Assembly: GCF_020164555.1 (NCBI RefSeq) | Contig: NZ_JAIQZB010000007.1 | Span: 124,001 to 188,000, forward strand | Direction of reading: 5' to 3' | Source: Salegentibacter lacus | Lineage (GTDB): Bacteria > Bacteroidota > Bacteroidia > Flavobacteriales > Flavobacteriaceae | Length of the DNA stretch: 64,000 nucleotides | Shown here: piece by piece, positions 8,879-43,575 of the stretch | Position numbering within the stretch: the stretch's first letter is position 1 | How the letters are laid out: each line of letters begins with the position of its first letter | The notes under the pieces: model-generated | What the model was told of the DNA's origin: nothing | The model's database searches: none | What the model saw: the letters and a program-made list of their open reading frames with translations, nothing else | Translations under genes and position numbers: made by a program

Positions 8879-8903
8879 GATTTCCGACTTCTCGGAAATG
8901 ACA
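8879..8903. repeat. REP-like palindrome (ATTTCCGA stem)
   Basis: ATTTCCGA-CTTC-TCGGAAAT followed by GAC. The 24 bases 8879-8902 are the exact reverse complement of 19473-19496 in the trp leader region, so two identical copies exist in the window. Confidence 0.75.
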
Positions 8904-18096: not shown

Positions 18097-18675
18097 ATGA
18101 AAAAGAATCTTTTAAAAACTGTATTTGCATCTGCATTTCTTGTATCATTTTTATCATTCACAACAGTGAATGCTCAGGATAAAACAATTGATGTAAAAGA
18201 AAGCAACATTAACTGGGAAGGTGAAAAAGTAACCGGCTCTCACTACGGTACCATAAACCTGCAAGATGGACATTTTACTATGGAAAACGGTGAACTTACC
18301 GGAGGGGAATTTGTAATAGACATGAGTTCTATCACCGTTACCGATCTTACCGGTGAAGACAAAGGAAAATTAGAAGGTCATTTAAAATCTGATGACTTCT
18401 TTGGTGTAAACAACCATCCAACTTCAAAATTGGTAATTACAAGTGTAGCCAAAAAGAGTAATGGAACATACGGTGTGGTAGCCGATCTTACTATTAAAGA
18501 TAAAACTAATCCGGTAACTTTCGATTTGGATTGGGAAGAAAATTCAGCTTCTACTGAATTAACTATAGACCGTTCTAAATACGATGTTCGTTATGGTTCA
18601 GGAAGTTTCTTTGATAACCTTGGAGACAAAACCATCTACGATAATTTTGAATTAGACGTAGCATTGAAATTTTAA
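18097..18675 (+). CDS. YceI family protein, secreted paralogue
   Basis: 192 residues with a Sec signal peptide (MKKNLLKTVFASAFLVSFLS, cleavage probably after VNA). The mature part is a YceI lipocalin-like beta-barrel: INWEGEKVTGSHYGTINL, then LEGHLKSDDFFGVNNHP, TSKLVITSV, and the closing TIYDNFELDVALKF. YceI proteins bind polyisoprenoid or other amphiphilic molecules in the periplasm. A cytoplasmic-looking paralogue follows 61 bases downstream. The link to MarR and nitroreductase suggests isoprenoid quinone or lipid redox stress, which is inference. Confidence 0.85.
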   Translation: MKKNLLKTVFASAFLVSFLSFTTVNAQDKTIDVKESNINWEGEKVTGSHYGTINLQDGHFTMENGELTGGEFVIDMSSITVTDLTGEDKGKLEGHLKSDDFFGVNNHPTSKLVITSVAKKSNGTYGVVADLTIKDKTNPVTFDLDWEENSASTELTIDRSKYDVRYGSGSFFDNLGDKTIYDNFELDVALKF

Positions 18676-18736: not shown

Positions 18737-19237
18737 ATGGAAAAACAAGTAGACGCAAAGGCTAGTAATATCGCCTGGAAAGGAAAAAAAGTTTTAGGTT
18801 CGCATTCAGGAACTATCGATTTAAAAGATGGAAAATTCCAGTTTGAAAACGAAGAAATAGTTGGTGGTGAATTTGTAATGGATATGACCACAATTACCGT
18901 TACCGATCTTAAAGGTGACGATAAAGCTGGACTGGAAGGTCATTTAAATTCAGACGATTTCTTTGGTGTGGATAACCATCCAACTTCAAAGCTAATAATT
19001 ACCAGTGTAGCTAAAAAAGACGATGGTACTTATGGTGTGGTTGGCGATCTTACTATAAAAGAAAACACGCATCCGGTGACGTTCGATTTAGATTGGAGTA
19101 ACAATACTGCAACTACAAAATTAAGTATAGACCGCTCTAAATACAATGTAAAATATAACTCCGGCAGTTTCTTTAGCGGACTTGGAGATCAGACGATTTA
19201 CGATAATTTCGATTTAAATATTGAGTTGAAATTTTAA
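18737..19237 (+). CDS. YceI family protein, paralogue without signal peptide
   Basis: 166 residues, ATG start at 18737, beginning directly with KQVDAKASNIAWKGKKVLGS. It aligns along its whole length with the upstream YceI protein, roughly two thirds identical by eye (LEGHLNSDDFFGVDNHPTSK, TIYDNFDLNIELKF), but lacks any signal peptide, so it is predicted to be cytoplasmic. It is a tandem duplicate with changed localisation. The transcript ends at a strong terminator 22 bases downstream. Confidence 0.82.
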   Translation: MEKQVDAKASNIAWKGKKVLGSHSGTIDLKDGKFQFENEEIVGGEFVMDMTTITVTDLKGDDKAGLEGHLNSDDFFGVDNHPTSKLIITSVAKKDDGTYGVVGDLTIKENTHPVTFDLDWSNNTATTKLSIDRSKYNVKYNSGSFFSGLGDQTIYDNFDLNIELKF

Positions 19238-19258: not shown

Positions 19259-19298
19259 AGCCGGAAAAGTTAAAATTGCTTTTCCGGCTTTCTTTTTT
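19259..19298 (+). terminator. Intrinsic terminator of the marR-yceI unit
   Basis: An 11-bp perfect stem, AGCCGGAAAAG (19259-19269) and CTTTTCCGGCT (19279-19289), then TTCTTTTTT. It separates the YceI unit from the trp promoter. Confidence 0.85.
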
Positions 19299-19308
19299 AG
19301 AATTTCAC

Positions 19309-19338
19309 TTGTTTATTTAAATATGCTTTCTATCTTTG
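19309..19338 (+). promoter_or_regulatory. Predicted trp operon promoter
   Basis: TTG at 19309-19311, a 19-base spacer, and TATCTTTG at 19331-19338: an exact match to the Bacteroidota TTG-N19-TAnnTTTG promoter. The expected transcription start (about 19341-19346) falls at or within a few bases of the leader-peptide ATG at 19344, so the leader mRNA would be leaderless or nearly so. Confidence 0.7.
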
Positions 19339-19343
19339 GACTA

Positions 19344-19400
19344 ATGAAAAACAGAATAGCAAATACCTGGTGGTGGAAAGATTTACGTCAAACGTCGTGA
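19344..19400 (+). CDS. trp operon leader peptide with three consecutive Trp codons
   Basis: An 18-codon open frame, MKNRIANTWWWKDLRQTS, ATG at 19344 and TGA at 19398-19400. Codons 9-11 are TGG TGG TGG. Trp is normally the rarest residue, so three in a row in a tiny frame between the trp promoter and an intrinsic terminator, upstream of trpE, is the hallmark of ribosome-mediated attenuation. The stop-codon region GTCGTGA (19394-19400) is complementary to TCACGAC in the terminator apex (19442-19448). When charged tRNA-Trp is plentiful the ribosome would reach the stop and cover GTCGTGA; when it is scarce the ribosome would stall at the Trp codons and leave it free. The peptide itself probably has no function. 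Confidence 0.85.
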   Translation: MKNRIANTWWWKDLRQTS

Positions 19401-19460
19401 AGTAACATCGCTATAGTATAAATTCATACAAAAGGCTTGTCTCACGACAAGCCTTTTTTT
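19380..19460 (+). promoter_or_regulatory. trp attenuator: leader hairpin, complementary segment and terminator
   Basis: The terminator is AAAGGCTTGTC (19431-19441), loop TCAC, GACAAGCCTTT (19446-19456), then a run of T to 19460: 11 perfect pairs. Upstream, GATTTAC (19380-19386) can pair with GTAACATC (19402-19409, one bulge), displaying GTCGTGA (19394-19400) in its loop. GTCGTGA is a perfect 7-base complement of TCACGAC (19442-19448), which spans the terminator loop and the first three bases of its 3' arm. No sequence complementary to the terminator 5' arm was found, so antitermination would have to act through this loop contact. The structure is read by eye and not folded. Confidence 0.65.
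19431..19460 (+). terminator. Intrinsic terminator of the trp leader
   Basis: An 11-bp stem with a 4-base loop followed by four T beyond the stem (seven T in the run). It lies 31 bases after the leader stop and 115 bases before trpE. Confidence 0.85.
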
Positions 19461-19471
19461 ATTCAGTTTTT

Positions 19472-19562
19472 TGTCATTTCCGAGAAGTCGGAAATCAAAA
19501 AATGAAAGCTTTTTAAAAAAATAAATCAATTTAAAATGGACTTCCACCTACGCGGAAGTGAC
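19472..19562. repeat. Head-to-head pair of REP-like palindromes between attenuator and trpE
   Basis: Left unit: GTC then ATTTCCGA-GAAG-TCGGAAAT (19476-19495). Right unit: ACTTCC (19540-19545) with GGAAGT (19554-19559) then GAC. TTTTTTGTCA on the left and TGACAAAAAA on the right form an outer inverted repeat. The left unit is the exact inverse of 8879-8902. The pair lies in the trpE 5' untranslated region. Confidence 0.75.
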
Positions 19563-19574
19563 AAAAAAATATTT

Positions 19575-20969
19575 ATGTATAAACTAACCACCACTCATAA
19601 AAAACTACTGGCCGATACCATTACTCCGGTGAGTGTTTACCTTAAGGTGAGGGACAAGTACCCCAACAGCCTTTTACTGGAAAGTAGTGATTACCACGCC
19701 AACGACAATAGTTTTTCTTATATCTGCTGCAATCCTATTGCTTCGATTAAAATTCAGAATGAAGTTATTACTGAAGTTTTTCCTGACGGAAGTAAGAATA
19801 CTACTGAAATTACTCCCGAAGTAAACGTGCCGCTTAAAATCCAGGAATTTTCAAAACAATTTAAAACTGAAGATTCCGATTTTAAATTCATCAATAATGG
19901 GCTTTTCGGTTATATCGCTTACGATGGGGTTCGGTATTTTGAAGATCTGGAGATCAAAAAACGAAATGGAGATCTTAAGCTTCCGGATATTTATTATGCG
20001 GTGTATCAGAATATAATTGCGATTAATCATTTCAATAACGAAGCTTATATTTTTGATCACAGCTACAATACCGATTCAAAAATTCCTGAAATCGAACAAC
20101 TTATTAAGGTTAAAAACTTCGCGACCTATAATTTTGAACGTCAGCAGGAACCGGTTTCCAACCTGACTGATGAAGAATTTAAGGCAAATGTAAGACTTGG
20201 AAAAAAGCATTGCTATCGTGGTGATGTTTTTCAAATTGTGCTTTCCCGCAGATTTTCGCAAAAATTTAAAGGAGACGAATTTAATGTTTATAGAGCTTTA
20301 CGAAGCGTAAATCCTTCCCCCTACCTTTTCTATTTTGACTACGGAAACTTTAAAATCTTTGGAAGTTCTCCCGAAGCGCAATTAGTGGTTCAGGACGGAC
20401 AGGCAGAAATTCATCCCATCGCCGGAACTTTTAAACGCACCGGAAACGATGAGGAAGACGCCGAATTAGCCAAAAAACTCGCTGCAGATGAAAAAGAAAA
20501 TGCCGAACACGTAATGCTGGTAGATCTTGCCCGCAACGATCTTAGTCGGCACGGGAACAATGTAAAAGTGGAGAAATACAGGGAGATTCAGTTTTTCTCC
20601 CACGTTATCCATTTGGTAAGTAAAGTCACCGGAACCAAAGATCCAAATACCCCGACAATGCAGGTAGTAGCGGATACTTTTCCGGCAGGAACTTTAAGCG
20701 GCGCACCAAAACACAGCGCGATGAAGCTTATAGAAAAGTACGAAAACGTAAACCGTGATGCCTACGGCGGTGCAATAGGTTTTATGGATTTCCACGGAAA
20801 CTTTAATCACGCGATTATTATTCGCTCGTTCGTCAGCAAAGATCATCAATTGCATTACCAGGCCGGCGCAGGAGTGGTTTCAGAATCTGTAGAAGAAAAC
20901 GAATTACAGGAAGTTTACAATAAACTCGGGGCATTAACCAAAGCCCTTGATATTGCTGAAGATATTTAA
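19575..20969 (+). CDS. trpE: Anthranilate synthase component I
   Basis: 464 residues from ATG 19575 (MYKLTTTHKKLLAD). An in-frame ATG 13 codons upstream is encoded by REP sequence and is rejected. The N-terminal regulatory half contains LLESSDYHANDNSFSYICC, the usual position of the LLES feedback site for tryptophan. The catalytic chorismate-binding half has GDVFQIVLSRRFSQKFKG, PIAGTFKRTGNDEEDAEL, FPAGTLSGAPKHSAM, YGGAIGF and QAGAGVVSESVEENEL. It converts chorismate with ammonia from TrpG to anthranilate and is the first gene of the trpEGDCFBA operon. Confidence 0.95.
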   Translation: MYKLTTTHKKLLADTITPVSVYLKVRDKYPNSLLLESSDYHANDNSFSYICCNPIASIKIQNEVITEVFPDGSKNTTEITPEVNVPLKIQEFSKQFKTEDSDFKFINNGLFGYIAYDGVRYFEDLEIKKRNGDLKLPDIYYAVYQNIIAINHFNNEAYIFDHSYNTDSKIPEIEQLIKVKNFATYNFERQQEPVSNLTDEEFKANVRLGKKHCYRGDVFQIVLSRRFSQKFKGDEFNVYRALRSVNPSPYLFYFDYGNFKIFGSSPEAQLVVQDGQAEIHPIAGTFKRTGNDEEDAELAKKLAADEKENAEHVMLVDLARNDLSRHGNNVKVEKYREIQFFSHVIHLVSKVTGTKDPNTPTMQVVADTFPAGTLSGAPKHSAMKLIEKYENVNRDAYGGAIGFMDFHGNFNHAIIIRSFVSKDHQLHYQAGAGVVSESVEENELQEVYNKLGALTKALDIAEDI

Positions 20970-21036: not shown

Positions 21037-21603
21037 ATGAAAAAAATAATAGTTATAGATAATTACGATTCTTTTGTGTACAACCTTGTGCATTATCTCG
21101 AAGAATTGGATTGCGAGGTCACGGTAATTAGAAACGACCAGTTAGAGCTGGAAGACGTTGAGAAATACGATAAGATCCTGCTCTCTCCCGGACCGGGAAT
21201 TCCTGAAGAAGCTGGTTTACTGAAACCGATTATAGAAAAGTACGCCTCTTCAAAAAGTATTCTGGGCGTATGTCTCGGCCAACAAGCCATAGGAGAAGTT
21301 TTCGGCGGAAAATTAGGCAATTTAGAATCCGTTTATCACGGTATAGCCACAAGGATGGATCTTTGTGTCGACGATGAGCCGCTTTTTAAAGGTTTACCAA
21401 AAACGATGCAGGTTGGCCGTTACCATTCCTGGGTAGTTTTAAAAGAACTCCCCGATTCCCTGGAAGCAACTTCTTATGATGAAAACGGACAAATTATGTC
21501 CCTTCGCCATCGCGAATTTGATGTGCGTGGCGTTCAATTTCATCCCGAATCGGTGTTAACTCCAGATGGTAAGAAAATGATTCAGAATTGGGTAAACAGT
21601 TAA
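21037..21603 (+). CDS. trpG: Anthranilate synthase component II (glutamine amidotransferase)
   Basis: 188 residues. Class I amidotransferase with the nucleophile C79 in GVCLGQQAIG, the oxyanion strand PGPGIPEE at 51-58, and the triad residues H169 and E171 in QFHPES. It supplies ammonia from glutamine to TrpE. The sequence alone cannot exclude sharing with para-aminobenzoate synthesis, but its place inside the trp operon argues for anthranilate. It is followed after 4 bases by trpD. Confidence 0.94.
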   Translation: MKKIIVIDNYDSFVYNLVHYLEELDCEVTVIRNDQLELEDVEKYDKILLSPGPGIPEEAGLLKPIIEKYASSKSILGVCLGQQAIGEVFGGKLGNLESVYHGIATRMDLCVDDEPLFKGLPKTMQVGRYHSWVVLKELPDSLEATSYDENGQIMSLRHREFDVRGVQFHPESVLTPDGKKMIQNWVNS

Positions 21604-21607
21604 ACTT

Positions 21608-22600
21608 ATGAAAGAACTATTAAACAGGCTCATAAACCACGAAACCATCTCCAAAGATGAAGCTAAGCAGGCGCTTTTCAGCATTTCTAACGGAGAATAT
21701 AATGAAAGTCAGATTGCCGCATTTCTTACGGTTTATATGATGCGTAGCATCACCATAGAAGAACTTGAGGGCTTTAGGGATGCGCTTTTAGAACTTTGCG
21801 TGGCCATAGATTTAAGCGATTATAACCCAATAGATCTTTGCGGAACCGGCGGTGATGGGAAAAATACATTTAATATTTCAACCACTTCCTCTTTTGTTAC
21901 CGCCGGCGCCGGTGTAAATGTGGCAAAACACGGTAACTATGGGGTTTCTTCGGTAAGCGGAAGTTCTAACGTGATGGAAAGCCTTGGAATTAAATTTAGT
22001 AACGACGCCGGATTTCTGGAAAAATGTATAGCTGAAGCGGGAATTTGCGTTTTGCACGCTCCCCTATTCCACCCGGCAATGAAAAACGTGGCGCCTATCA
22101 GGAAATCCCTGGCGGTAAAAACCTTTTTCAATATGCTAGGGCCAATGGTAAACCCTGCGTTTCCAAAAAATCAACTGGTAGGGGTTTTTAACCTGGAACT
22201 GGCCAGAATGTATGGCTATTTGTATCAAAACACCGATAAGAATTTCACTATTTTGCACGCCCTGGATGGTTATGATGAAATTTCCCTCACCGGAAACACA
22301 AAAACCATTTCCAATAATTCTGAAGGAATGATAAGTCCGGAAGATTTTGGAGTAGAAACCTTAAAACAAAAAGATATTGCCGGGGGCGGTTCTGTAGAAA
22401 GTTCAGCTGAAATTTTCGTAAATATTTTAAAAGGAAAAGGCACCGAGGCACAAAACAATGTGGTTTGCGCCAACGCCGGAATGGCCATCGCCACTGCAAA
22501 TCAAGTTAGTGCCAGAGAAGGTTTTGAAACTGCCCGGGAATCTATAAATTCGGGGAAAGCTTTAAAAGCATTGGAGAAATTGCAGGAGTTGAGTAAGTAA
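21608..22600 (+). CDS. trpD: Anthranilate phosphoribosyltransferase
   Basis: 330 residues. The PRPP/anthranilate site is seen in DLCGTGGDGKNTFNIST near residues 76-92, followed by VAKHGNYGVSSVSGSSNVMESLG near 106-128 and the LGPMVNPAF segment. It transfers phosphoribose to anthranilate, the second step of tryptophan synthesis. The 4-base spacing to trpG suggests translational coupling; it is the only trp junction free of REP-like repeats. Confidence 0.95.
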   Translation: MKELLNRLINHETISKDEAKQALFSISNGEYNESQIAAFLTVYMMRSITIEELEGFRDALLELCVAIDLSDYNPIDLCGTGGDGKNTFNISTTSSFVTAGAGVNVAKHGNYGVSSVSGSSNVMESLGIKFSNDAGFLEKCIAEAGICVLHAPLFHPAMKNVAPIRKSLAVKTFFNMLGPMVNPAFPKNQLVGVFNLELARMYGYLYQNTDKNFTILHALDGYDEISLTGNTKTISNNSEGMISPEDFGVETLKQKDIAGGGSVESSAEIFVNILKGKGTEAQNNVVCANAGMAIATANQVSAREGFETARESINSGKALKALEKLQELSK

Positions 22601-22615
22601 TCCATTATCAATCAA

Positions 22616-22645
22616 CTTAGATCCTGAAACAATTTCAGGATGACG
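22616..22645. repeat. REP-like palindrome in the trpD-trpC gap
   Basis: CTTAG then ATCCTGAA-ACAAT-TTCAGGAT (22621-22641) then GACG. Plus-oriented majority form. Confidence 0.75.
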
Positions 22646-22691
22646 TTAAGGAAAAACAGAGAACTCATAACTGAGAACGCATAACATAATT

Positions 22692-23477
22692 ATGAACATT
22701 TTAGACAAAATAATAGCCGATAAACATAAAGAACTGGTTTTAAAAAAGCTAGTAGTGCCTATCTCGCAATTGGAGCAATCGGCGCTTTTTGAGCGTCAAA
22801 CAGTTTCTTTGGCTCAAAAGCTAACAATCAGCAAAACCGGGATTATTGCCGAACATAAAAGACGTTCCCCTTCAAAATCAGTCATCAACCAGGATTTAAA
22901 TGTGGAAGATGTAGCCAAAGGTTATGAAGAAGCAGGTATTTCAGGAATGTCGGTTCTTACTGATGGCAAATATTTTGGGGGATCTCTAGACGATTTGCTT
23001 TATGCCCGTGCTGCGGTTAAAATGCCATTGTTGCGAAAGGAATTTATTATTGATGAATATCAACTTCTGGAAGCAAAAGCTCACGGAGCTGATGTTATTC
23101 TACTTATTGCCGCGGTTTTGGAAAGGGAGCAAATAAAATCGCTTTCAGAGTTTGCAAAAAGCATTGGCCTGGAGGTATTGCTGGAAGTTCATAATGAAGA
23201 AGAATTACAAAAGTCTATTATGCCTAGTTTGGATATGCTGGGTGTAAATAACCGAAATCTAAAGACTTTTGAAGTCAGCACCGAAATCAGCAAAGAACTT
23301 TCAGAAAAGATACCGGAAGATTTCGTGAGAGTTTCGGAAAGTGGAATCAGCTCGGTTGAAGCGATTAAAGATTTGCAGCAATATGGCTATAAAGGTTTTT
23401 TAATCGGGGAGAATTTTATGAAAACAAATAATCCAGGTAAAGCAGCGGCAGAGTTTGTGAAAGAATTGAGTACTTAG
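22692..23477 (+). CDS. trpC: Indole-3-glycerol-phosphate synthase
   Basis: 261 residues, a single-domain TIM barrel. Catalytic motifs are IIAEHKRRSPSKS near residues 51-63 (E and K), LRKEFIIDEYQ near 114-124, LLEVHNEEEL near 160-169, GVNNRNLKTFEV near 181-192, and SESGISS near 216-222. It closes the indole ring from CdRP with loss of CO2. It is not fused to TrpF, which follows as a separate gene after another REP-like repeat. Confidence 0.95.
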   Translation: MNILDKIIADKHKELVLKKLVVPISQLEQSALFERQTVSLAQKLTISKTGIIAEHKRRSPSKSVINQDLNVEDVAKGYEEAGISGMSVLTDGKYFGGSLDDLLYARAAVKMPLLRKEFIIDEYQLLEAKAHGADVILLIAAVLEREQIKSLSEFAKSIGLEVLLEVHNEEELQKSIMPSLDMLGVNNRNLKTFEVSTEISKELSEKIPEDFVRVSESGISSVEAIKDLQQYGYKGFLIGENFMKTNNPGKAAAEFVKELST

Positions 23478-23499
23478 GGTCTAGGCTGTTAACATCATG

Positions 23500-23528
23500 T
23501 TAGATCCTGAAACAAGTTCAGGATGACG
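23500..23528. repeat. REP-like palindrome in the trpC-trpF gap
   Basis: TTAG then ATCCTGAA-ACAAG-TTCAGGAT (23504-23524) then GACG, the consensus form. The remainder of the gap (near 23541-23582) holds another palindrome-like repeat with TCCTCC and GGGGGAGG blocks. Confidence 0.75.
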
Positions 23529-23600
23529 AAAACCAACACCAGCTCTCCTCCTTTTTAAGTAGGAGTACCCGAAGGGGGAGGTGGTTAACAAAAAGTAAAA

Positions 23601-24248
23601 ATGAAAAATCTAAAACTCAAAATATGCGGGATGAAAGATCCCGAAAACATCAGCGAAGTTGTAAAACTTCAGCCTGATTATATGGGTTTTATCTTTTATG
23701 AAAAAACCCCTCGATATTTTGATGCCGAAATCCCGGAAATCCCTTCAGCAATTAAGAAAACCGGAGTTTTTGTCAATGAAGAAATCGATGTTATCCTTGA
23801 AAAAATTAAGAAACACGATCTTAATGCGATTCAACTTCACGGGGATGAGTCTGCGGCATTTTGCGCTGAACTAAAAACACTCTTGATGGAAACTCCGTTG
23901 GAAATAATTAAGGTGTTTTCTGTAAAAGACAATTTCGATTTTAATCGTTTAGAAGAATATGAAGCTGTTGTAGATTATTTCCTTTTTGACACTAAAGGAC
24001 AAAACAAAGGCGGAAATGGGATCACTTTCAACTGGGAGATTTTAAAAAAATATCCTTCGGAAAAACCTTTTTTCCTCAGCGGGGGAATCGGGCCGGAGGA
24101 AGTTGAGGAAATCAAAAAACTAAAGGCTTATTTTCAGCAAAATGGAAAAGAAAATTTGCTTTATGCCATAGATGTAAATAGTAAATTTGAAGAGAAACCG
24201 GGTTTTAAAAATGTTGAAAAGCTGGAAAAATTTGTTAAGTGGTTTTGA
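23601..24248 (+). CDS. trpF: Phosphoribosylanthranilate isomerase
   Basis: 215 residues, a TIM barrel. It starts KLKICGMKDPENI with the catalytic cysteine at residue 9, then GFIFYEKTPRY near 29-39, KKTGVFVNE, AIQLHGDES near 77-85, the catalytic aspartate in FLFDTKG near 128-134, and FFLSGGIGPEEV near 155-166. It performs the Amadori rearrangement of PRA to CdRP. The 174-base gap to trpB contains repeats only. Confidence 0.93.
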   Translation: MKNLKLKICGMKDPENISEVVKLQPDYMGFIFYEKTPRYFDAEIPEIPSAIKKTGVFVNEEIDVILEKIKKHDLNAIQLHGDESAAFCAELKTLLMETPLEIIKVFSVKDNFDFNRLEEYEAVVDYFLFDTKGQNKGGNGITFNWEILKKYPSEKPFFLSGGIGPEEVEEIKKLKAYFQQNGKENLLYAIDVNSKFEEKPGFKNVEKLEKFVKWF

Positions 24249-24302
24249 GTTGTCTGTTCTCGGTTATGAGTTCTCGGTTGTCAGTTTTGGAGTTTGGAGT
24301 TT
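24247..24302. repeat. Low-complexity GTT-rich quasi-repeat
   Basis: Iterated GTTNTC / GAGTT units (AGTTGTCTGTTCTCGG, then TTATGAGTTCTCGGTTGTC). Similar tracts occur at 31853-31930 and 55239-55276. It is followed by a copy of the TTAGTG.ATTCG motif at 24331-24343. Confidence 0.45.
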
Positions 24303-24375
24303 TAAAAACTTCGGTAATGACGAATTAAAATATTAGTGTATTCGGCAAAAAAAAGAATTTGAAATTTTTGAAAAT

Positions 24376-24404
24376 TTAGATGCTGAAATAAATTCAGGAT
24401 GACG
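24376..24404. repeat. REP-like palindrome in the trpF-trpB gap
   Basis: TTTAG then ATGCTGAA-ATAAA-TTCAGGAT (24380-24400) then GACG. One stem position is unpaired (G opposite G), so this copy is slightly decayed. Confidence 0.7.
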
Positions 24405-24473
24405 TAAATCACAAGTTTCCAATTGAATAAAAAAACTAGTGCACTCGTGGCACTACAAATAAAACAAATAAAA

Positions 24474-25655
24474 ATGAGCTATCAGGCTAACGAAAAAGGA
24501 TATTACGGCGATTTTGGGGGAGCTTTTATTCCCGAAATGCTCTATCCAAATGTAGAGGAATTGCGTTCGCAATACCTGGATATTATGAAAGAAGAATCTT
24601 TTCAGAAAGAATTTAAAGATCTGCTGCGTGATTATGTGGGGCGGCCGACGCCACTTTATTATGCCAAGCGTTTTAGTGAGAAATATGGCACAAAAATCTA
24701 TCTAAAACGAGAAGATCTTTGCCACACCGGTGCACATAAAGTGAATAACACTGTCGGCCAGATCTTAATGGCAAAACGCCTGGGAAAAGATCGTATTATC
24801 GCTGAAACCGGTGCGGGTCAACACGGTGTGGCTACCGCTACTGTTTGCGCGCTTATGGGCATTGAATGTATCGTTTACATGGGCGAGGTTGATATTGAGC
24901 GACAGGCGCCAAACGTGGCCCGAATGAAAATGCTGGGTGCCACGGTGGTTCCGGCTAAATCGGGTAGCCGAACGCTAAAGGATGCTACCAATGAGGCAAT
25001 TCGGGATTGGATCAACAATCCGCTGAACACGCATTATATTATTGGTTCGGTGGTGGGGCCTCACCCCTATCCCGATATGGTAGCGCGGTTTCAGGCGGTG
25101 ATTTCTGAAGAAATTAAAGTACAGCTGAAAGAAAAAGAAGGTCGTGAAAATCCGGATTATGTTGTGGCCTGTGTAGGTGGCGGAAGCAACGCTGCCGGAG
25201 CATATTTTCATTATCTAGATAATCCTGAGGTTGGGATTATCGCGGTTGAAGCGGCTGGAAAAGGCATACAAAGTGGTGAAAGCGCTGCGACTTCAGCTTT
25301 GGGAAAAGAAGGAATTATCCACGGGAGTAAAACCCTGCTAATGCAAACCGACGACGGGCAAATTACCGAACCCTACTCCATCTCTGCAGGGCTCGATTAT
25401 CCGGGAGTTGGCCCAATGCACGCTAATTTATTTAGGAGTGGTCGTGGAGAATTTATTTCGATAACCGATAAAGCAGCAATGGATGCCGGGCTTGAACTGG
25501 CCAAATTGGAAGGTATTATCCCGGCTATTGAAACCTCTCACGCCCTGGCGATTTTTGAAGACCGAAAGTTTAAAAAGGATGATATTGTAGTGATCAATCT
25601 TTCCGGACGTGGAGATAAAGATTTGAGTACTTATATTGACTATTTTGATTTGTAA
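24474..25655 (+). CDS. trpB: Tryptophan synthase beta chain
   Basis: 393 residues from ATG 24474 ([18 protein letters not shown]). An upstream in-frame TTG at 24423 is encoded by dispersed-repeat sequence and is rejected. The PLP lysine is K89 in HTGAHKVNN. The substrate loop is [13 protein letters not shown] near 109-121, the phosphate-binding loop [11 protein letters not shown] near 232-242, and the C-terminus carries [10 protein letters not shown]. It condenses indole with serine to give tryptophan, in complex with TrpA. The length is typical of TrpB1. Confidence 0.96.
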
Positions 25656-25659
25656 AAAG

Positions 25660-25685
25660 CCCCCTAGCCCCCAAAGGGGGAATTA
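25660..25685. repeat. Dispersed CCCCCTAGCCCCC repeat
   Basis: AGCCCCCTAGCCCCCAAAGG then GGGAAT: a short inverted repeat (GCCCCC / GGGGG), unusually GC-rich for this AT-rich genome. It lies directly after the trpB stop. Confidence 0.4.
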
Positions 25686-25716
25686 TTATAAAAGTTTAAA
25701 ATAAAATATGAGTTAT

Positions 25717-25794
25717 CGTCAACCTGAACTTGTTTCAGGTTCTAAGATGAGTTTGATATATCAGCTTAGATTCTGAAACAAGTTCAGAATGACG
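25717..25794. repeat. Head-to-head pair of REP-like palindromes in the trpB-trpA gap
   Basis: Left unit: CGTC then AACCTGAA-CTTGT-TTCAGGTT (25721-25741) then CTAAG. Right unit: CTTAG then ATTCTGAA-ACAAG-TTCAGAAT (25770-25790) then GACG. The outermost stem pairs differ between units (A-T/A-T versus A-T/T-A and C-G/T-A) but both stems pair perfectly, which is compensatory variation. Confidence 0.78.
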
Positions 25795-25810
25795 TACCAG
25801 AATAAAAAAA

Positions 25811-25842
25811 AGATTGCGACGGGCGCTGCCCTCGCAATGACG
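25811..25842. repeat. REP-like palindrome, ATTGCGA variant
   Basis: AG then ATTGCGA-C-GGGC-GCT-GCCC-TCGCAAT (25813-25838) then GACG: an 11-bp stem with one bulge. The outer AGAT...ATGACG frame is shared with the CCTGAA family. Confidence 0.7.
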
Positions 25843-25884
25843 AAAAACATATTAGTGTATTCGTGGCGAAAAAATTGAAAACAA

Positions 25885-25925
25885 ATTAGATTCTGAAATA
25901 TCCCAAAGTTTCGGGACAGAATGAC
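25885..25925. repeat. REP-like palindrome, long-arm variant, before trpA
   Basis: ATTAG then ATTCTG (25890-25895), CCC (near 25902-25904), GGG (25913-25915) and CAGAAT (25917-25922), then GAC. It is an extended member of the family with an internal CCC/GGG stem. It ends 20 bases before the trpA ATG. A TTAGTGTATTCGTGGC copy (25851-25866) lies between it and the previous element. Confidence 0.6.
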
Positions 25926-25945
25926 AATTTATAAGAATATTGAAA

Positions 25946-26713
25946 ATGAACAGAATAAATAAAAAACTTCAGGAAGAGCAAAAACTACTGTCTATCTATT
26001 TTACGGCGGGTTATCCTGAAACCGAAGATACGGTTTCGATTCTTCAGGAACTGGAAAAAAATGGTGTGGATTTTATAGAAATTGGTTTACCGTTTAGCGA
26101 TCCGTTGGCTGATGGGCCTACCATTCAGGAAAGTTCTACCAAAGCCCTGAAAAGTGGAATGACCACCAATAAACTCTTTGAACAACTTAAGGGAATTAGG
26201 GATTCAGTTGAAATTCCGCTGATTATTATGGGATATTTTAATCCTATTCTTCAGTATGGCGTGGAGAAATTCTGTAAGAAATGTGCAGAAACAGGCATTG
26301 ACGGACTTATAATCCCTGATCTTCCGGTTGATGTTTATAATGAACAATACATGCAGATTTTCGAGGAAAACGGACTTCAAAATATATTTCTAATAACACC
26401 ACAAACTTCCGAAGAGCGCATTCGGTTTATTGATTCGGTTTCCAACGGCTTTATTTATATGGTAAGCTCAGCCAGCGTTACCGGTTCTACCAGCGGCTTT
26501 GGTGATGAGACAAAAAAATATTTTAAAAGGGTAAATGATATGCAACTTAAAAATCCGCAGGTGGTTGGTTTTGGAATTAGCGATGCCGAAAGTTTTCAGC
26601 AGGCAACTCAATACGCTAAGGGAGCTATTATTGGTTCGGCATTTATTAAACACCTCAACAAAAATGGCAAAAATAAGATAGCCGATTTTGTAAAAAGCAT
26701 CAGGCCGGTTTAA
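25946..26713 (+). CDS. trpA: Tryptophan synthase alpha chain
   Basis: 255 residues from ATG 25946 (MNRINKKLQEEQ); the in-frame TTG two codons upstream is less likely. TIM barrel with catalytic E near 46 in DFIEIGLPFSDPLADGPTIQ and D near 57, then the loop IIPDLPVD, SSASVTGSTSGF near 174-185, and VGFGISDAE near 209-217. It cleaves indole-3-glycerol phosphate and channels indole to TrpB. It is the last gene of the operon. Confidence 0.95.
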   Translation: MNRINKKLQEEQKLLSIYFTAGYPETEDTVSILQELEKNGVDFIEIGLPFSDPLADGPTIQESSTKALKSGMTTNKLFEQLKGIRDSVEIPLIIMGYFNPILQYGVEKFCKKCAETGIDGLIIPDLPVDVYNEQYMQIFEENGLQNIFLITPQTSEERIRFIDSVSNGFIYMVSSASVTGSTSGFGDETKKYFKRVNDMQLKNPQVVGFGISDAESFQQATQYAKGAIIGSAFIKHLNKNGKNKIADFVKSIRPV

Positions 26714-41922: not shown

Positions 41923-43575
41923 TTAATCCAGTAGCGCACGTGCGTGAGCCCGCGCCGAATCTCCTATATTCTTACCTCCAAGCATCATCGCCAGCTCTTC
42001 TACCCGCTCGCTGTCTTTTAATTCCTCAATCTTGGTGGTGGTGGCATTCGCCGAATCTTCTTTAAATATTTTGAAATGACTGTTTCCTTTCCCGGCAATT
42101 TGCGGAAGGTGGGTAATGGCAATTACCTGCATCGCATTCCCCATTCGTTGTAAAATTCCCGCCATTTTCTGCGCAATATCTCCTGAAACTCCCGTATCAA
42201 TTTCATCAAAAATAATGGTAGGAAGTTTGCTTTGCGCTGCAAGAATACTTTTTACAGCCAACATAATTCTGGAAAGTTCCCCACCGGAAGCTGCTTTTTT
42301 AATTTCCTTAAAATCGCCGCCTTTATTCGCAGCCAAATACCAGTTTAATTCATCCTGACCGTTAGCGAGAAAATTTGGAGCTTTTTTTAAATCTATTTTT
42401 AATCGGGCGTTAGGCATTCCTAAATCACCCAGTAAGTTTTCGGCTTCTTTAATAAAGGCCGGGACTATAGCTTTTCGTTTTTCGTGTAATTTCGTAGCAA
42501 TAGCGCCCAATTTACTTTCCTGCTTTACAATTGCATTTTCTAATTCTGAAAGCGTATTTTCGGCATTTTCACTTACCGAAACTTTTTCCTGAAGTTCGTC
42601 CTTGATCTTCAGTAATTCTTCAATATTTTCTGCGGAATGTTTTTTCTGAAGATTATAAATCAACTGAAGTTTTTGATTTGTGGCTTCAAGTTCTTCAGGA
42701 TTGGCTTCTACCCTGTCCAGCGCATCACTTACTTCTGAAGAAAGATCGTCAAGTTCTATAATCACACTTTCTATGCGCTGATGTAGATTTTCATAATTTG
42801 AGGATAAATTGGCAATTCTGGACAAAGAGGCACGAGCCTGTTTTAGGCTATCCAAACTTCCAATTTCTTCCTGCTCCAGTAAATTTAAAGCGGAACTTAA
42901 ATTCTCAGTTAATTCTTCAACATTACTCAACTCCTCATAACGGGTTTCGAGTTCTTCCTGCATCCCGATTTCTAAACGTGCCTCTTCAAGTTCGTTCAGT
43001 AAAAATAAATTGTAATCGTATTCTTTAGTAGCCTGCGCCTGCTCTTCTTTTAATTCTACAAGACGCTTTTGTAACTTTTTATAGGCTTTTAGTTCGGTTT
43101 TATATTCTAAAAGCAAAGTTTCGCTATTGGCAATAGTATCAATTACCTGAAACTGGTAATCGTTATTTCCCAAACTTAAAGTTTCGTGCTGACTGTGGAT
43201 ATCGATTAAATATTCTCCCAGTTTATTCAAAGAAGTGAGTTTTACCGGCGTATCGTTTACAAAAGCGCGGGATTTCCCTGAAGCCAAAATTTCCCGCCTG
43301 ATTATGGTATTTTCTTCATAATCCAGATCTTCAGAAACAAAGAAATCTTTCAGCTTATAATTAGAGATATTGAAACTTCCTTCTATCACGCATTTTTTGT
43401 CAGCATCACGAATGCTTCCGTAGTCGGCGCGGTTACCTAAGAGAAGTCCGAGTGCGCCCAACATAATCGATTTTCCGGCACCGGTTTCTCCTGTAATAAT
43501 GGTAAATCCTTCCTGAAGTTTAATATTTATATCTTCAATTAAGGCGTAATTTTTTATGGATAGAGCTGTGAGCAA
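41923..43575 (-). CDS. recN: DNA repair protein RecN
   Basis: 550 residues, an SMC-like ATPase. Start is TTG (MLTALSIKNYALIEDINI), since no in-frame ATG lies nearby upstream. Walker A is GETGAGKSIMLGALGLLLG near 29-47. A long central coiled coil follows, and the C-terminal half has ASGGELSRIMLAVKS (signature) and TIIFDEIDTGVSGDIAQKM (Walker B). RecN acts in double-strand break repair. It follows the bamD-rpoZ-coaBC-DUF4835 run after a 160-base gap with a short palindromic repeat. Confidence 0.95.
   Translation of the reverse strand: MLTALSIKNYALIEDINIKLQEGFTIITGETGAGKSIMLGALGLLLGNRADYGSIRDADKKCVIEGSFNISNYKLKDFFVSEDLDYEENTIIRREILASGKSRAFVNDTPVKLTSLNKLGEYLIDIHSQHETLSLGNNDYQFQVIDTIANSETLLLEYKTELKAYKKLQKRLVELKEEQAQATKEYDYNLFLLNELEEARLEIGMQEELETRYEELSNVEELTENLSSALNLLEQEEIGSLDSLKQARASLSRIANLSSNYENLHQRIESVIIELDDLSSEVSDALDRVEANPEELEATNQKLQLIYNLQKKHSAENIEELLKIKDELQEKVSVSENAENTLSELENAIVKQESKLGAIATKLHEKRKAIVPAFIKEAENLLGDLGMPNARLKIDLKKAPNFLANGQDELNWYLAANKGGDFKEIKKAASGGELSRIMLAVKSILAAQSKLPTIIFDEIDTGVSGDIAQKMAGILQRMGNAMQVIAITHLPQIAGKGNSHFKIFKEDSANATTTKIEELKDSERVEELAMMLGGKNIGDSARAHARALLD

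Follow-up and report, generated by a model that had tools for sequence, protein, structure and literature searches.

Introduction

In the trp leader of E. coli, the antiterminator is formed with the 5' arm of the terminator. Leader-peptide attenuation of this kind requires a ribosome that follows closely behind RNA polymerase, and timely initiation of translation. Weinberg et al. 2010 (PMC2864571) list in their Table 1 an RNA element of Bacteroidota, Bacteroid-trp (Rfam RF01692), which is given there as probably cis-regulatory and not as a switch. The passage of PMC6414381 that deals with the trp operon of F. psychrophilum describes Bacteroid-trp as conserved upstream of this operon and compares it with the leader of E. 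coli. Amino acid operons of the same species are preceded by strong clues of leader-peptide attenuation, according to the relevant section of PMC9723704, where structured 5' elements before pheA and hisG are reported and the trp element is unnamed.

A reading of Salegentibacter lacus DNA made from the letters alone, hereafter the sequence-only reading, had proposed a ribosome-mediated trp attenuator in the window, as we call the whole 64-kb stretch analysed here, and had suggested that no case was worked out in Flavobacteriia. That suggestion holds only in part: experimental dissection of an RF01692 element was not found in the literature searched, which lay mostly outside subscription journals, but the element is catalogued, and papers on F. 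psychrophilum already point to leader-peptide attenuation. The idea of a first known case was consequently dropped, as the RF01692 match given below and the F. psychrophilum papers rule against it. The element family and the idea of attenuation are known already; new are the likely switching parts and a probable leaderless start, which seem not to have been worked out.

Results

A Bacteroid-trp element precedes the trp operon of the window

The window element matches RF01692 with 68.9 bits (cut-off 49) over model positions 1-131 of 131, and the E-value of 1.9e-6, calculated for 64 kb against 4227 families, shows that the match is more than chance. RF01692 was the sole Rfam family above its cut-off in the 64-kb window, where no T-box was matched. 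Some sub-threshold matches on the minus strand (BTnc231, Phe_leader and others) were discarded as chance, being below the family cut-offs and overlapping the terminator hairpin. Both marks of family membership, a score above the curated cut-off and a position upstream of trpE-trpA in Bacteroidota, were found.

The window element shares with RF01692 its trp-upstream position, the Trp codons and the conserved GGCUUGUC. The family consensus, however, is one long hairpin that ends within the 5' arm of the terminator and includes neither the terminator, nor a loop antiterminator, nor a leaderless start, whereas all three can be assigned in the window element, the antiterminator and the start as predictions. 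The parts of the locus are listed below in window coordinates; promoter elements, frame and Trp codons were read from the sequence.

19309..19311, + strand: TTG, -33 promoter element, followed by a 19-nt spacer
19331..19338, + strand: TATCTTTG, -7 promoter element of the TAnnTTTG consensus
19344..19400, + strand: leader peptide frame MKNRIANTWWWKDLRQTS, 18 codons and a TGA stop, probably leaderless (5' UTR of 0-1 nt)
19368..19376, + strand: TGG TGG TGG, three Trp codons, predicted stalling site
19382..19387, + strand: segment 1 (UUUACG), whose partner in the folds without ribosome is 19396-19401
19394..19400, + strand: segment 2 (GUCGUGA), common to the predicted sequestering hairpin and antiterminator (leader listing, co-variation, folds)
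19402..19412, + strand: extension of the antiterminator by imperfect pairing to 19434-19441 of the terminator 5' arm (stalled-state fold)
19406..19413, + strand: outer part of the sequestering hairpin, paired with the Trp codons (19368-19375) in the minimum-energy fold
19416..19429, + strand: small spacer hairpin GUAU...AUAC (folds)
19430..19457, + strand: intrinsic terminator, 12-bp stem, loop TCAC, T-run to 19460 (sequence, terminator search)
19442..19448, + strand: segment 3 (UCACGAC), terminator loop and 3' arm base, perfect complement of segment 2 and predicted antiterminator core
19578..20969, + strand: trpE, encoding anthranilate synthase component I (start by homology)
21037..26713, + strand: trpG, trpD, trpC, trpF, trpB and trpA, the rest of the apparent operon (ORFs, homology)

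The promoter that had been read as TTG-N19-TATCTTTG and the 18-codon frame with TGG TGG TGG were both borne out, at 19309-19338 and 19344-19400, as was the presence of trpE downstream of the terminator. The terminator itself was rightly described as a perfect stem with a T-run, but its length had been given as 11 bp, and 19430-19441 pairs perfectly with 19446-19457 over 12 bp. For trpE, the ORF finder had chosen 19536, an in-frame ATG upstream of the position at which homologues begin, 19578. Segment 2 overlaps the leader stop codon, and the pairing of 19406-19413 with the Trp codons appears to be the outer stem of the RF01692 consensus. Elsewhere in the 64-kb window, TGGTGGTGG occurs at a single further site, 42033-42044. 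A generic sigma-70 promoter scan misses this promoter, which is of a different type (TAnnTTTG).

The DNA around the leader has some features of its own. A palindromic repeat lies between the attenuator and trpE (19467-19568), and the gap from terminator to trpE is 120 nt, compared with 22 nt in L038 of the same genus and a median of 30 nt. This repeat has seven matches in the genome, itself included, and its 24-nt core has an exact second copy on the minus strand of the window, at 8879-8902. An element of similar appearance occupies this place in L189-L191 (Salegentibacter) and in L216, a more distant locus, and includes a GIY-YIG-type gene, identified with Pfam in L189, L191 and L216 and by resemblance in L190; L192 has repeats between terminator and trpE without such a gene. 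The window repeat looks like an ORF-less version of the GIY-YIG-carrying element. Just upstream of the attenuator are tandem YceI-domain genes (18097-18675 and 18737-19237), of which, by eye, the first has a signal-peptide-like start and the second does not.

The leader is conserved across Flavobacteriaceae

The sequence-only reading had proposed in advance that the region upstream of trpE be compared across Flavobacteriaceae for a short frame with consecutive Trp codons and a terminator. Both proved to be conserved, in 132 leaders. RF01692 matches were obtained in 109 of 149 genomes (148 genera), 95 of them over the cut-off, and all of the 108 RF01692-found leaders with a readable flank (108 of 109) precede trpE. 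Lack of a match in the other 40 genomes is mostly not real absence: trpE with readable upstream sequence is present in 24, of which 23 carry a Trp leader; four have trpE fragments only, and 12 have distant matches (at most 33% identity) or none. The remaining one of the 24, L166, has trpE without any leader and is a real exception. In the sampled genomes, then, nearly every readable trpE of Flavobacteriaceae is preceded by the element. The 132 family leaders comprise the 109 found with the RNA model and 23 found by inspection upstream of trpE, the latter selected by a short open frame with a Trp pair or triplet. In the 131 of 132 with a readable flank, trpE follows on the same strand at a median distance of 146 nt, an arrangement that is a finding for 108 leaders and holds by construction for the 23.

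The frame is open from ATG to the Trp codons in 128 of the 132 leaders, compared with 1/132 and 0/132 for the shifted frames, a count that is partly by construction because 23 of the 132 were chosen by such a frame; among the 109 RNA-model leaders, the start is ATG in 105 and TTG or GTG in four. Judged from these counts, the leader frame is conserved as a predicted translated frame. The Trp run starts at codon 9 in 110/132 leaders and has three Trp codons in 116 and two in 16. An intrinsic terminator was called in 129/132. Rows without a called terminator (L031, which lies at a contig edge, and L069, L134 and L158) were dropped, and the pairing counts given below cover 129/132 family leaders and 34/35 other leaders; duplicates (L133, L135, L184) and a further leader at a contig edge (L156) were left out.

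Closer to the window, the nearest named TrpE relatives are four Salegentibacter species with 89-97% identity. All 80 closest named relatives listed carry the leader, 76 of them within 500 nt of trpE. In the remaining four it lies farther upstream, behind an inserted element, and the apparent absence of a leader in these four was rejected on that ground. In the phylum sample, counted by RF01692 model matches alone, 42 of 395 genomes had a match, seven of them outside Flavobacteriaceae.

This conservation bears on two other explanations of the locus. In one, the terminator merely insulates trpE from upstream genes and the short frame is fortuitous; its position would suit this role, but the upstream gene already has a separate terminator-like site (19259-19289), and the explanation is contradicted by the comparison, in which promoter, frame, Trp codons, terminator and pairing are conserved in 132 family leaders. 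We regard it as extremely improbable. Scarcely more credible is the other, in which Trp is sensed directly by a protein or a tRNA (TrpR, TRAP, T-box) and the leader serves as target only. We found no point in support of it, the T-box is unmatched in the window, and consecutive Trp codons suggest that the ribosome is the sensor. A search for TrpR (PF01371) gave no match in the one genome of the window with a profile that matched 2 of 14 control genomes, E. coli included.

The element is instead very probably a ribosome-mediated transcription attenuator of the trp operon and a member of RF01692. Computation recovered the Trp-codon frame, the terminator and a predicted ribosome-controlled antiterminator by which such an attenuator is recognised, and the proposal of ribosome-mediated attenuation made in the sequence-only reading draws strong support from the family comparison.

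Segment 2 and the terminator loop co-vary

The terminator is nearly fixed in the family, with the form GGCUUGUC-nn-UCAC-GACAAGCC, in which the loop letters are conserved too. In 110 of 129 leaders a second conserved motif, UCGUGA, follows the last Trp codon at a distance of 17-22 nt (about 18 nt); it is the complement of the terminator loop together with the first bases of the terminator 3' arm. Relative to the peptide, UCGUGA falls into the three reading frames in 74, 30 and 6 of the 110 leaders, and it sometimes lies past the stop codon; since it occurs in all three frames, its conservation is at the level of RNA, not of protein. Segment 2 and the terminator loop are complementary over at least 6 bp in 117/129 leaders, compared with 6.4% of mononucleotide shuffles.

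Partner specificity was examined by exchanging the terminator loops among leaders in 1000 swaps, with the leaders treated as independent despite their relatedness. Across the 129 leaders, own partners scored 16.74 and swapped partners 15.55, and across the 19 leaders that lack UCGUGA the values were 14.82 and 10.49; in both cases 0/1000 swaps were as good, relatedness being uncorrected. For pairing of the RNA that follows the Trp codons (segment 1) with segment 2, 0/1000 swaps were likewise as good in the family. The control pairing, segment 1 with the loop, showed no partner specificity (724/1000 swaps as good).

Loop and segment 2 have changed jointly in L081, L157, L160, L163 and L168. Thus, UGUCGCAAU pairs with AUUGCGACA in L081, UCGCGA with UCGCGA in L160, and GGAUUCAG with CUGAAUCC in L163. 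Several independent changes of the loop and segment 2 are likely because the deviant leaders differ in their letters. In L162, L163, L167 and L168, which come from distant genera, the loop and the switch segment are largely rewritten, and in L162, L163 and L168 the new pairing lies at about the unchanged offset, 17-18 nt from the Trp codons. Exceptions are L105 and L151, without a convincing antiterminator, and the leaders in which segment 2 and the loop share only 5 bp (L107, L161, L164 and L165) or 4 bp (L167).

The same attenuator could have a classical antiterminator, in which pairing with the terminator 5' arm is decisive, as in E. coli, and loop complementarity is helping or incidental. 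The stalled-state fold of the window does reach the 5' arm: 19402, 19405-19407 and 19410-19412 form seven pairs with 19434-19441, imperfectly spaced, and in the 129 leaders a mean of 5.0 of the 8 core bases of this arm is paired upstream. Moreover, the his leader of the same genome (L187) has an antiterminator fold mainly against its own terminator 5' arm, and in L182 and L183, from another family, GGCAGCC could, by eye, pair with the 5' arm. Yet in the window uninterrupted pairing with the 5' arm reaches 4 bp at most, and across the family the 5' arm pairing shows no co-variation, 991/1000 swaps being as good, and 917/1000 in the 19 deviants. The loop letters UCAC, conserved in most leaders, are notable because a bare terminator has no need of them, and the joint changes in the five leaders named above also speak against the 5' arm as the decisive partner. 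A classical antiterminator is accordingly unlikely in our judgement. The predicted antiterminator is of a design that is loop-centred, not loop-only, and its unbroken co-varying core, as judged from the partner swaps, is the loop with the 3' arm base.

Ribosome position and folding of the nascent RNA

A ribosome usually covers about 12 nt past the first base of the A-site codon. With this footprint assumed, a ribosome at the last Trp codon would leave 7-12 nt free before segment 2, and a ribosome at the stop codon would cover segment 2 in 106/110 leaders. We then folded the nascent RNA up to the 3' arm base and recorded whether the loop was paired with upstream RNA. The antiterminator was formed in 127/129 leaders when the ribosome was set at the second Trp codon and in 7/129 when it was terminating. 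With no ribosome it was formed in 70/129 leaders, and was absent in the window; because these 70 form it without a ribosome, the sequestering hairpin is, in the folds, weak in many leaders. The shuffled control for this measure gave 203/645 (31.5%), a high background, and the partner-swap test is therefore given more weight.

In the window, the full terminator state has -20.7 kcal/mol and the shorter nascent chain with the antiterminator -12.7. With full-length RNA the terminator wins in 129/129 leaders, and antitermination must therefore depend on timing.

The window leader is probably leaderless

The distance from the box to the ATG is 5 nt in the window. Statements on promoters in PMC9723704 place the TAnnTTTG box of F. 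psychrophilum at -12 to -5, and those in PMC6847099 have F. johnsoniae transcripts starting 4-5 nt after the box. From the 5-nt spacing and this published distance, the RNA should begin at 19343 or 19344, and the leader is thus probably leaderless in the window.

An exact box is present in 130 family leaders, and its distance from the ATG is 4-6 nt in 33 (exactly 5 in 25), 7-12 nt in 34, 14-22 nt in 59 and 33-46 nt in four. A TTG is found 17-22 nt before the -7 box in 27/33 leaders with spacing 4-6 and in 53/59 with spacing 14-22. The TrpE tree, on which 125 of 131 rows have a spacing label, requires no fewer than 12 switches between the class of spacing 4-6 and longer spacings; it was built quickly and its inner branches are weak.

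An ordinary short 5' UTR, with the true start farther upstream, would find precedent in the 59 family leaders of spacing 14-22 with their A-rich context, and also in the general rarity of leaderless messages: they make up only 5.5% of mRNAs in F. psychrophilum by the figure quoted from PMC9723704, and, according to PMC6847099, leaders exceed 10 nt in 87% of the transcripts predicted for F. johnsoniae. The spacing of 5 nt in the window, against published starts 4-5 nt past the box, argues otherwise, as does the A-rich context that the class of spacing 4-6 lacks, with A at -3 in 6/33 leaders compared with 41/59 in the class of spacing 14-22. The spacing is exactly 5 in 42 of the 76 close named relatives with a leader within 500 nt, which are not independent of one another. 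We hold the ordinary 5' UTR to be improbable for this leader and prefer a leaderless start.

Two congeneric leaders provide a natural comparison of leadered and leaderless starts. In S. salarius (L189), ATA stands in place of the ATG at the tip of the RNA and the leader starts farther downstream; S. holothuriorum (L190) has retained the ATG at the tip, which is in frame with a longer peptide.

Discussion

The mechanism that we propose runs as follows. Transcription would start at or next to the AUG, and a ribosome would probably load directly on the 5' end of the RNA. When Trp-tRNA is scarce, this ribosome would stall on the three Trp codons, covering segment 1 and not segment 2. Free segment 2 (GUCGUGA) could then pair with the nascent terminator loop and 3' arm base (UCACGAC), and imperfect pairing would extend the antiterminator into the terminator 5' arm. 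To judge from pairing and geometry, the terminator would not be formed in time, and RNA polymerase would read into trpE. When Trp is plentiful, a ribosome at the stop codon would cover segment 2, leaving the terminator to fold and to end transcription at about 19460. If no ribosome is present, segment 1 would hold segment 2, and termination is expected in this genome as well.

We lean towards regarding this arrangement as a distinct Flavobacteriaceae design, in which a leader that is translated leaderless in several lineages, this one included, is combined with an antiterminator that would seize the terminator loop and 3' arm base first. From there it would spread loosely into the 5' arm and so block nucleation of the terminator; loop and switch segment would have been rewritten together several times with the design retained. 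If true, the loop-centred antiterminator is a variant way of building an attenuator switch.

Flavobacteria seldom use Shine-Dalgarno sequences, and an AUG at the 5' end of the RNA would be a simple answer to the demand for a timely first ribosome. The sequence-only reading had singled out the scarcity of Shine-Dalgarno sequences as a puzzle for coupling of ribosome and polymerase; the likely answer is two-fold, an apparent leaderless start here and an A-rich start context in other lineages. A leader of this kind can moreover be compared with those of sister lineages, where the same peptide still has a short A-rich 5' UTR before it.

Leaderless attenuators have precedents in actinobacteria. Mycobacterial polycysteine leaders, which Canestrari is said to have treated in 2020, are reportedly leaderless leader-peptide attenuators. 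The leader frame of the C. diphtheriae ilvB attenuator is given as leaderless in the pertinent passage of PMC5784534. These systems have in common with the window leader a regulatory short frame at the RNA 5' end and differ from it in phylum and in amino acid, the likeness being one of description. The leader candidates of F. psychrophilum share with the window leader both the bacterial family and the kind of mechanism.

Within the genome of the window itself, a His-rich leader precedes hisG and a Phe/Tyr-rich leader precedes pheA. The first (L187, reverse complement, at about 1844) consists of a His leader, MKNSQLHHHHIYYCAQAR, and a terminator; the second (L188, reverse complement, at about 1748) has a Phe/Tyr leader, MNHLISWNAFYFFYFYFRDRNGNAM, followed by a terminator. 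Searched against Rfam, neither the his leader nor the pheA leader had a match at the gathering score. Given the fold of the his leader, loop-centred and 5' arm antiterminator designs may both be present in one cell.

With E. coli trpL, finally, the window leader has in common a leader peptide with Trp codons, a stop codon over the switch segment, competing helices and a terminator before trpE. It differs in that no Shine-Dalgarno sequence is expected, the start is probably leaderless, the promoter is of the TAnnTTTG type and TrpR was not found in its genome. The switch also differs from that of E. coli: in the window the predicted co-varying core is the terminator loop with the 3' arm base, and pairing with the 5' arm is imperfect.
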